Shown here piece after piece: positions 197-64,000 of a DNA stretch of 64,000 nucleotides (position 1 is its first letter; each line of letters opens with the position of its first letter). The DNA is from Paratrimastix pyriformis (Eukaryota; Preaxostyla; Paratrimastigidae), in NCBI GenBank assembly GCA_027972325.1, contig JAPMOS010000066.1, positions 33,501-97,500 on the forward strand, written 5' to 3'. The notes beneath the pieces were generated by a model. The model ran no database searches, was not told where the DNA came from, and worked only from the letters and a program-made list of their open reading frames with translations. Made by a program: the position numbers and the translations under genes.

Positions 197-3101
197 ATGA
201 TACCTGCCCCTGCGGTCGCATTGTTCCATCCGGAAGACGGTTCCCCCCATCGGGCGACAGTTTCCCAATCCGGAGTGGTGCTGGGGATGGCACTCTCGCG
301 CGATTTTCTCCACTATCTCTCGGGACATGCCGTTTTGTTCTTGAGTCAATGCATTTGGAGTGGATATTCTGTGCTGGCTCGTTACGCCACGTTCACCTTT
401 GACAGCGTGATCTTCTCCTTCTTTCGACTCCTTGGTGCCACTCTCATCTTAGCCGTGGCTGCCTTCTTTCTGGTTTGTGTTTCGTGTTTTTTTCTCAGAC
501 TGATTGCCGTTAGTATCACTTCAAGCGAAGGCCGTACATGCCCGGCAAGGACGATTGGAAGGCCATGGCTCTGTACGCCTTCACAGGTCAGCAATCTGAT
601 TCATCACTCACTCGAGGCCAACGCTCTTGCTTTTTTCGCAGGCGGGTTTTTCAACCAGCTTTCGAATCAGTATGCCCTGCGATTCCTGAGCGCCTCCGAG
701 GTGTCCATGTTTAGCCCGCTGGGCCCCGTCAGTGCCATGGTATTCGGCTTGCTTCTTCACCAAGAGCGCTACTCTCATATCCGACTGGCGGCTGTGGCTC
801 TTGCCCTGCTGGGGGCAGCGGTTATGCTCAAGGTGGATCAGGCCATCCTGGCCCTCTTCGGGGGCGATGATGACACCCCGTTGAGCTGGGAGCGGGCCCT
901 GGGCTACGTGTTCGCGATCTCGAACGCGCTGAACAAGGGGCTTCTTCGGAACGCACAGAAAGTCTGCATAACCTCACACAGACCTCCGGCGACGGACGCC
1001 TTGACTCACTTGCATGCCTCCCTGTGGGTGTCTGTGTTTGCTTTTTTGCGGGTCATCACCATTTTGTGATTTTTGTTCGGCCACCGGTCCAAGTTCGCTC
1101 AAGCTGTGCGTCATTTGAGACCCCTTCCTGTCCGATTGATCAGCCCCTTTGCTCACACACAGCCTCACCTACCACAATTCTGTCACGACGACCTCACCCA
1201 TGCTGTTCCATCATCATCATCATCATCATCATCATCATCCAATCATCATCATCATCATCATCATCATCATCATCATCATCATCATCATCATCATCATCAT
1301 CATCATCATCATCATCATCATCATTATCATCATCCAGTCATTATCATCATCATTATCATCATCATTCTAATCATTCTAATCATCCAATCATCCAATCATC
1401 CAATCATCCAATCATCCAATCATCCAATCACAACAACAACAGGCCGTGATGGACCGCCTGTCGATGACCACGGCCAACGTCTGGATGAACTTTCTCGGGT
1501 TCTGTGGGATGGCGCTCCTGTCTCCGTTCTTCTGGTCCAATTTCGACCCGGTCGTCATCGCCCCCGGGGCATGGGTGGCTCTGGCCTACTCCATCGGTCT
1601 GGCTGGGCCTGTCCTTGCAATCCTGGCTGTCTTGGTTGTCCTGGCTGGCTGTCCTTGGCTGCCCATTCCACTGCAGTTCTGGGGCTCGGTGATTGCCTTC
1701 ATGGCTGGGCAGTTCCTCACACTCCGCACTCCGCCTTTTGCAGTTCTGGGGTCGGTGATTGCCTTCATGTTGGGCAGTTACTCAGCCCGCATTCCCACAC
1801 TCCACCATCCTTCTCCTTGGCTCTCCACATCCACATCCTTTTGCAGTTCTGGGGTCGGTGATTGCCTTCATGGCTGGGCAGTTCCTCAGCCCGCACCATC
1901 TCCCTCACTCCACCCTCCCTTCTCCCCTTTGCAGTGCTGGGGTCGGTGATTGCCTTCATGGCTGGGCAGTTCCTCAGCCCGCACCATCTCCCTCACTCCA
2001 CCCTCCCTTCTCCTCTTTGCAGTGCTGGGTTCGGTGATTGCCTTCATGCTGGGCAGTTACTCGGCCCGCATCCTCTCGCCCACCGTCTGCTCGCTGTACG
2101 GTGCCCTGGCCCCCTTTCTGACGACCTCCCTGGCGGTGGTCTTTCTGGATGAGGTCCTGACACCCCGCATGTGGGTCGGCTGTTTCATCGTGGTCGGTTC
2201 GCTGTTGCTTGTCATTCTGGCCCGGTATCGCGAAAAATCCAAGTCCCGGCAGGCGCAGACAGCGGCATCGGTGGCGGAACTTCCCCCGCCCCCGGTCATG
2301 TCGCCCTGCGTGCCCGTCTCCTCGCCGCCGCCACAAAACCAGCCCTCGGGGTATATCACCCCGGGGGGAGTGGATCTGGGGGCATATGTGCCCATCTCCT
2401 TGCAGCCGCCACAACACCAGCCCTCGGTGTCTGTCACCTCCTCATCCTCGGAGGGGGCGCCACAGCCGCGGGGGGGTGTCACCTCCTCGGAGGGGGCGGA
2501 GCTGGCCGAGATGGGGTCTCGCGTGCCCCTGGTCCCGAAGAAGAAGAATGAGATGGCGGGGGTTGATTCGGCTGGGATGAACAGGTCTGCGCACCCCCCA
2601 CGCACCCAGAGAGGTTGTCTAGCCCCCCACATCCCACACACCGCTACACCGCCCCAGCCCTTTCGGCTGCTGGGTTGGGAAGAGGAGCAGGAGCAGGAGG
2701 AGCAGGAGGGGGGGAGGGGGGAGGGGGTACAACTGAATAATAAAAAAACGACACTCGAACCCCCCTCGTCGTGCAAAGGCACCGCCCTCATCCCGCCACC
2801 CCCCCTCCCGTTTTGCTGGGTTCATCGGCTTCATCGCAGCCCCGCGGCCGCTTCAGCAACGACAAGCGGCGACTTCGGAACGACGACGGGCCCCGTGTCC
2901 GCACCGCCACTGGACTCCACACCTGCCGCCCGCTGTGCCCCTCCGGCCCTTCCCCCGGACGACCAGGCCGCGGCTGCGGACGGGTACCAGTCGCTGGGGG
3001 TGGGACAGGCCAGGGTGGAGCAGACCAGAGGGGTGGAGCAGACCGGGGGGGTGGAGGGTACTGGCGGGTACCAGTCGCTGGGGGTGCAGGCCAGGGGGTA
3101 G
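197..3101 (+). CDS. DMT/EamA (WAT1/SLC35-like) transporter
   Basis: Multi-pass membrane transporter of the drug/metabolite transporter superfamily; the substrate cannot be told. Model: exons 197-472, 514-586, 642-961, 1443-1596, 2023-2584, 2840-3101, about 548 aa. Hydrophobic helices run through exons 1-5. The EamA-like signature is split by intron 4 (AYSIVLGSVIAF, then LSPTVCSLYGALAPFLTT and VVFLDEVLT). A Pro/Ser-rich cytosolic tail of about 180 residues follows the last helix and ends in GVEQT-like repeats. Donors are GTTTG, GTCAG and three GTCTG. Intron 3 carries an ATC microsatellite. The region before exon 5 holds four extra copies of its own acceptor and exon start. Intron 5 (2585-2839) is stop-free and a multiple of three, so it might be retained. 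The start could instead be an internal ATG near 287, just before the first helix. Confidence 0.75.
1209..1440 (+). repeat. ATC microsatellite and ATCCA repeats in transporter intron 3
   Basis: About 120 bases of (ATC)n followed by imperfect ATCATCCA units fill most of the 481-bp intron 3. The repeat ends a few bases before the acceptor at 1441-1442. The poly-Ser, poly-His and poly-Ile frames across it are translations of the repeat, not genes. Confidence 0.9.
1673..2070 (+). repeat. Five tandem copies of an acceptor plus exon start
   Basis: The string GCAGTTCTGGGGTCGGTGAT, or a close variant, plus the following 25-50 bases occurs at about 1673, 1737, 1840, 1927 and 2017. Each copy contains a pyrimidine tract, an AG and the start of exon 5 (GSVIAFM). 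Only the last copy continues into the rest of the exon, so the first four are decoys. Confidence 0.9.

Positions 3102-64000: not shown

Follow-up and report, generated by a model that had tools for sequence, protein, structure and literature searches.

An altered GTC-G 5' splice site and a matching change at the 5' end of U1 snRNA in Paratrimastix pyriformis

The 64,000-nucleotide stretch of Paratrimastix pyriformis DNA analysed here (contig JAPMOS010000066.1, positions 33,501 to 97,500, hereafter the window) carries a Sen1/NAM7-like helicase (window 7200-14800), a UvrD-like helicase and SEY1 (37200-46000). The depositors' annotation divides the helicase into two genes (P0018 and P0017), between which lies a putative, opposite-strand frame (9571-11124) that looks reverse-transcriptase-like by eye. 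SEY1 is likewise divided there (P0001 and P0002), whereas in our alignment a 1.9 kb intron joins the two parts into a single gene. Our draft SEY1 is 97% identical to a P. pyriformis protein over 58% of the query, and PAPYR_8135 is one of two P. pyriformis proteins matched by the helicase draft (89% over 53% for one match, 100% over 47% for the other); no P. pyriformis protein stood among the best 20 homologues of the UvrD-like helicase. The initial annotation had claimed that most introns here begin with GTCYG (Y, pyrimidine) instead of the usual GTRAGT (R, purine), and that the U1 small nuclear RNA (snRNA) or its partners should have co-evolved. The shift of the donor (5' splice site) to GTCYG is confirmed, and we conclude that the nucleus of P. 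pyriformis very probably uses a reassigned GTC-G donor for its U2-type introns, read by a co-evolved U1 with the 5' end AUACAGACCUUG.

The genome assembly examined comprises 56.06 Mb in 495 contigs (the genome paper, in the passages available to us, gives 56.6 Mb, 60.9% GC, 633 scaffolds and a BUSCO value of 76.3%; PMC10703272). Junctions were called with a spliced protein-to-DNA aligner and PDB homologues as queries, introns being given no sequence preference except for an optional mask (GT..AG). Seven alignments make up this blind set: Prp8 (human query), XRN1, DNAH5, METTL16, Sey1 against the window, Sen1 against the window helicase, and Sen1 against a helicase paralogue on contig C441 (locus L030). 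The Sey1 query is from Candida and the Sen1 query from Chaetomium. Conserved genes were sought with Pfam in 30 of the 122 long reading frames found, and 11 of these 30 had a match; dynein, XRN and METTL16 were carried into the alignments, together with the AAA_11 helicase of L030 by way of Sen1, and further matches were to glycine decarboxylase, RICTOR and PI4-kinase. A donor is called well resolved if the score drops by 10 units or more when it is taken away, which holds for 28 of the 39 introns (the other 11 being weaker). XRN is counted once, with human XRN1, and a fly Pacman query gave the same two resolved donors. The resolved introns are spread over six contigs (12 on the window contig, C459, six each on C456 and C441, two on C24, and one each on C223 and C332), the two helicase copies being not fully independent because their intron positions are common to both.

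With only GT..AG ends required, the 39 blind introns include 34 GTC donors (29 of them GTCYG), two GTR and three GTT, the last two groups falling entirely among the 11 weaker introns. Every one of the 28 resolved donors begins GTC and has G at +5, and 26 read GTCYG; GTR is absent, and with no purine at +3 these donors do not follow the GTRAGT consensus. Against a background of 580 GTC and 114 GTCYG among 1576 GT sites, the enrichment of GTCYG has a binomial p of 7e-28 (sites treated as independent). Position +4 is C in 14 cases, T in 12, and A and G in one each, and position +6 is T in 13, C in 11, A in three and G in one. The donor of U12-type introns is RTATCCTT. It was not seen among the 28 resolved donors, all of which are GTC-G, and the search for a branch-site motif in the same introns gave scattered CTNAY only.

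The Prp8 alignment contains six introns, all with GTCCG donors, and scores 5013 unconstrained and 5012 with GT..AG; the score stays at 5012 when donors are limited to GTCYG (16 of 206 GT sites) and falls to 4648 for GTR only. GTCCG ranks top of the 64 GTNNN pentamers (the runner-up scoring 3940), and when acceptors are AG, GT comes first among the 16 donor dinucleotides, so these introns have U2-type GT..AG ends. For SEY1 and the window helicase pooled, GTC[CT]G is first of 96 degenerate rules (781 vs 473). Six introns are resolved in both the window helicase and its C441 paralogue, at the same positions and in the same phases, and all are GTC-G with a +4 base that shifts among C, T, A and G; +4 is therefore weakly constrained, mostly against purines. 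Of the introns common to the two copies, the two that are similar in length agree at only about half of the aligned bases. Taken together, the alignments support a /GTC-G core in which a pyrimidine is strongly, though not strictly, preferred at +4, and beside which a minor GTT class exists.

The depositors' gene models provide an independent source, having been built, according to the genome paper (PMC10703272), by Augustus after retraining, by PASA/EVM and with intron hints from RNA-seq; these hints belong to the annotation as a whole and not necessarily to each intron listed. Four depositor proteins (P0001, P0002, P0017 and P0018) were mapped to the window with GT, GC and AT donors allowed, and their 28 introns begin GTCCG (14), GTCTG (9), GTTTG (2), GTTCG (2) and GTTTT (1), or GTCYG in 23 and GTT in five (Table 1). 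These models share the donor of 11 of the window's 12 resolved blind introns, the exception being that at 39223. Since the depositor models carry GTCYG donors, the pattern is implicit in the public annotation; a term search of the genome paper's text found no description of it (PMC10703272). A fifth depositor protein, P0019, fitted L030 poorly, with many spurious gaps, and stands outside these counts. Each of the six junctions that the initial annotation had singled out carries GTCTG or GTCCG at the base given. Its minor donors GTTTG, GTTTT and GTTCG recur in the depositor models, while GTATG, which it also listed, is absent from both intron sets.

Table 1. Introns and named donor sites in the window (blind, blind alignment; depositor, depositor model; letters, donor letters present at the base named by the initial annotation)
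Feature	Position	Strand	Donor	Source and remarks
Intron, helicase 5' part (P0018)	7253..7334	+	GTCCG	depositor
Intron (P0018)	7407..7721	+	GTCCG	depositor
Intron (P0018)	7774..7897	+	GTTCG	depositor; minor class
Intron (P0018)	8069..8116	+	GTCCG	depositor
Intron (P0018)	8376..8431	+	GTCCG	depositor
Intron, splits GPPGTG/KT	9184..9242	+	GTCCG	blind (Sen1), depositor
Intron, Sen1-like helicase (P0017)	12069..12119	+	GTCTG	blind, depositor
Intron, Sen1-like helicase	12147..12201	+	GTCTG	blind, depositor
Intron, Sen1-like helicase	12361..12410	+	GTCTG	blind, depositor
Intron, Sen1-like helicase	12572..12630	+	GTCCG	blind, depositor
Intron, Sen1-like helicase	12749..13123	+	GTCCG	depositor; blind: same donor weak (drop 5), acceptor 13162
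Intron, Sen1-like helicase	13284..13338	+	GTCTG	blind, depositor, letters
Intron, Sen1-like helicase	14310..14441	+	GTTTT	depositor; minor class
Named donor, UvrD-like helicase	15925..15929	+	GTCTG	letters only
Named donor, UvrD-like helicase	16035..16039	+	GTCTG	letters only
Named donor	36008..36012	+	GTCCG	letters only
Intron, SEY1	37523..37569	+	GTCTG	blind, depositor
Intron, SEY1, splits SSGK/ST	37668..37716	+	GTCTG	blind, depositor, letters
Intron, SEY1	38019..38644	+	GTCCG	blind, depositor
Intron, SEY1	38800..39107	+	GTCTG	depositor
Intron, SEY1	39223..41111	+	GTCCG	blind only; depositors split SEY1 here, intron absent there
Intron, P0001	39292..39472	+	GTCTG	depositor
Intron, P0001	39544..39843	+	GTTTG	depositor
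Intron, P0002	40962..41111	+	GTTTG	depositor
Intron, SEY1	41231..42026	+	GTCCG	depositor; blind: same donor, acceptor 41351
Intron, SEY1	42100..42428	+	GTCCG	blind, depositor
Intron, SEY1	42546..43114	+	GTCCG	depositor
Intron, SEY1	43197..43710	+	GTTCG	depositor
Intron, SEY1	43797..44431	+	GTCCG	depositor
Intron, SEY1	44761..45181	+	GTCTG	depositor
Intron, SEY1	45287..45584	+	GTCCG	depositor
Intron, SEY1	45717..45825	+	GTCCG	depositor

Eight U1 genes were found, and the 5' end is AUACAGACCUUG in all eight, not the usual AUACUUACCUG (with the Rfam model RF00003 all copies begin ATACAGACCTTGCTTGG). Positions 5-6, which face +4 and +3 of the donor, are changed from UU to AG in every copy, columns 1-58 of the alignment are invariant, and the best copy matches model positions 1-166 (E ~1e-13). 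The same eight loci, all with AG, were returned by a genome-wide pattern in which positions 5-6 were left open, and again, with no others, by a search using the U1 body only. The exact canonical U1 pattern has no match in 56 Mb, nor did an exact pattern find a second U1 with GG at positions 5-6, which would explain +4C. The expected co-evolution of U1 or its partners is thus supported by a directly compensatory change in every U1 copy found.

An element, TCCCATAA, lies about 60 bases upstream of all eight U1 genes and of 17 of the 19 U2, U5 and U6 loci viewed (25 of 27 in all, with L009 and L026 one letter off). CTCAAG-like letters stand about 30 bases upstream in all eight U1 genes, and the U6 loci L010 and L011 have TTATAAGG near -30. 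The U1 genes carry these promoter elements and are probably expressed, in which case the mature RNA, presumably capped and bound by Sm proteins, would start AUACAGACC. The U1 Sm site, AATGTTTGG, looks unusual next to the canonical form. The U6, U2 and U5 cores are unchanged: the U6 core AUACAGAGA is kept in all four copies (which read GATACAGAGAAG), so that the ACAGA box, which the initial annotation had marked for checking, is unchanged as ACAGAGA; the branch-pairing GUAGUA of U2 (GTAGTA) is kept in the five copies read of ten matches; and the U5 loop CGCCUUUUAC is unchanged in seven of seven. U1, U2, U5 and U6 genes are therefore all present with intact cores, except for the U1 5' end. Among proteins there is one match each for zf-U1 (U1C-type) and for the METTL16 and SNRNP27 families (the latter two in one exon each, their function being putative). 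The best PDB matches of the METTL16-family candidate are METTL16 structures, and among 14 control genomes the METTL16-family model matches five and the zf-U1 model one. With one match per family, the idea that the shift was caused by losing METTL16 or SNRNP27K is unsupported.

The promoter element also occurs in dispersed repeats of the window (at 33.9, 39-41, 45-48 and 52 kb), in some of which CTCAA follows after about 25 bases; 24 matches were counted in the window against two in 20 other 10-kb stretches, and these repeats could be promoter-like or snRNA-derived. Very long simple repeats, which read as His, Ile or Ser runs, lie within or between genes at 41-45 kb and 47-54 kb. A tRNA-Ala with anticodon GGC is predicted at 30256-30328. 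Such an anticodon is unusual for tRNA-Ala in eukaryotes.

How might the new U1 end meet the new donors? Published structures, as presented in the relevant passages of PMC10581693, place +4 opposite U1 position 5 and U6 A43, and therefore +3 would face U1 position 6 and U6 G44. For all 28 resolved donors the predicted duplex is stronger with the new U1 end than with the canonical end (mean -8.75 vs -4.73), and when the rest of the new end is held fixed, AG ranks second of 16 dinucleotides at positions 5-6, UU giving -3.84. Since U6 keeps AUACAGAGA, U1 and U6 share AUACAGA, and a GTCTGT donor can pair fully with both. For such a donor, as CAGGUCUGUAU, the prediction is -14.3 kcal with the new U1 and -7.3 kcal with U6, and for the U6 ACAGA box GUCUGU compares with -1.9 kcal for GUAAGU. 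We infer pairing of the following form in the cell. U1 C4 would pair with +5G, G6 with +3C, and A7 with U and C8 with G of the invariant GU, while A5 would pair with +4U or tolerate +4C; a G6-U wobble would suit the minor GTT donors with +3U. The intron would then be handed over to U6, which is unaltered and offers +3C, +4U, +5G and +6U possible pairing partners in its ACAGA box.

Part of the evidence weighs against a reassigned donor read by a co-evolved U1, and some of it concerns the donors themselves. A GTCYG-only rule costs nothing in Prp8 and DNAH5 and lowers the score in the other five alignments (XRN1 from 372 to 343, METTL16 201 to 145, SEY1 457 to 431, the window helicase 370 to 350 and the C441 helicase 368 to 251); other donors must therefore be in use too, GTCYG being the major but not the sole form. 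Runs with no splice rule outscore GT..AG in the weaker alignments (XRN1 402 vs 372, METTL16 223 vs 201, SEY1 517 vs 457, window helicase 446 vs 370), so GT..AG is an assumption there. A gene finder using codon usage only, with neutral donors, converged on no donor upon re-estimation; it was too weak, with GTCCG as its top donor in 14 of 209. Gene finders favouring GTCYG (192 of 294, and 121 of 448 with an over-calling model) are biased by design; they served for drafts only and are not counted as evidence. The failure of the codon-usage finder to converge, with the two GTR donors among the 11 weak introns and the use that the initial annotation made of the pattern in choosing among ambiguous donors, might suggest that donors were mis-called and that true GTRAG sites lie nearby. 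We give hardly any credence to such an artefact, given that all 28 resolved introns fit, that Prp8 loses 364 units under GTR, and that models made with RNA-seq hints agree.

Other difficulties concern U1. All eight copies score 50.8-60.2 bits (60.2 for the best), under the Rfam gathering score of 69.5; scoring covered only 41 of the 992 first-look candidates, and the assembly may be incomplete, to judge from the published BUSCO value, so that the genes seen could belong to a diverged or pseudogene family, with a canonical U1 unassembled or missed. Eight near-identical, promoter-bearing copies with an invariant 5' portion make this very improbable, as do the far worse fit of canonical U1 to the donors and its absence as an exact pattern. 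It is also the case that +4C is as common as +4U though U1 and U6 both present A, so that GTCCG places an A-C mismatch opposite both; that GG at positions 5-6 would be predicted to pair better than AG (-11.49); that +4C donors gain about 2 kcal from the new U1 on average (-6.75 vs -4.70) and just 0.4 kcal in a fixed CAG/GUAU flank; that in the predicted U1 fold CAGAC (positions 4-8) can pair with GTTTG from the Sm-site region of the same molecule; and that the METTL16 and SNRNP27 families, tied elsewhere to +4A, each have a match. Could recognition then rest on U6 and proteins, with the U1 change a neutral passenger of a real donor shift? Full pairing is possible between GUCUGU and the invariant U6, and Entamoeba is described, in the passages available of PMC13292270, as splicing without U1, with recognition by U6 and proteins proposed. 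We nevertheless hold the passenger explanation to be improbable, since the change falls exactly on the two bases facing the altered donor positions, AG is fixed in all copies and pairs better with every resolved donor, and a U1C-type zinc finger is retained. A different alternative refines co-evolution by giving it an order, in which donors of a GUAUGU-like ancestor, of the kind seen in the oxymonad Streblomastix, first became fully complementary to the U6 ACAGA box and U1 followed. Streblomastix has A, U and G at +3 to +5, going by passages of PMC1501061, so +4U may predate the change, and U6 is unchanged here; against this order, +4C, which U6 and U1 disfavour equally, is as frequent as +4U. 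It is plausible that GUAUG turned into GUCUG and that U1 came after, and this U6-driven order falls only a little short of being the probable one; the alternative would be led by U1.

The equal use of C and U at +4 may have a further cause. N6-methyladenosine (m6A) at U1 A5 or U6 A43 is one possible reason for it, m6A:U pairs being destabilising in short helices according to passages of a review (PMC11732430). The U6 target of the METTL16 relative is the A of the ACAGA box; methylation of U1 A5 as well could explain the equality. This would belong to a more speculative and rather unlikely scheme, in which the donor-reading end of U1 converged on the ACAGA box, introns pass between two copies of the same sequence, and the METTL16 relative may methylate U1 A5.

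Like the canonical system of GURAGU donors and U1 ACUUACC, that of P. pyriformis has GT..AG ends, U1, U2, U5 and U6, and +5G faced by U1 C4; it differs in +3C, +4Y and AG instead of UU at U1 positions 5-6. Position 6 of U1 is a pseudouridine in humans and yeast. So is position 5, according to a survey of Saccharomycotina (PMC10581693), from which the statements on that group below come, in the passages available. The switches from +4A to +4U in Saccharomycotina are likewise lineage-level donor shifts with U6 ACAGA unchanged, but U1 ACUUACC is invariant there wherever a U1 candidate was found (227 of 230 species and nine of 10 outgroups), and the switches tracked METTL16 and SNRNP27K, whereas in P. 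pyriformis U1 changed and both families have a match; the authors named a change of U1 position 5 to A as a possible compensation, not found there. Cyanidioschyzon merolae, from the same source, also has an snRNA change at the +4 contact, in U6 and not in U1. The diplonemid S. specki shares an altered U1 5' end, yet, as passages of PMC12621601 describe it, the variant has a C-run, and stands beside a canonical U1, the two being comparable in their pairing with a canonical donor logo, while all U1 copies found in P. pyriformis are changed. The oxymonad Streblomastix strix, placed in the phylum Preaxostyla as P. pyriformis is, shares +4U and +5G in its GUAUGU donors and differs in +3A, which to its authors, in passages of PMC1501061, suggested that the interaction with U1 is conserved. 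Ostreococcus GTGCGTG is similarly an atypical, strong donor consensus, with the +3 purine kept, and the passages available of PMC2483917 make no mention of a U1 change. No paper among the open-licence PubMed Central matches listed describes a U1 whose 5' end has changed across a lineage in step with its donors.

Few RNA sequences are as conserved as the 5' end of U1, which stayed invariant in the Saccharomycotina survey despite donor switches (PMC10581693, same passages). A donor and a U1 changed genome-wide while U6 is unchanged amount to a natural compensatory experiment, which opens to test how a global splicing signal is reassigned and whether U6 or U1 leads, as well as the need for uridines at U1 positions 5-6 and the role of METTL16 and SNRNP27K when +4 is not A. 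Gene finders that expect standard donors would mis-annotate such a genome.

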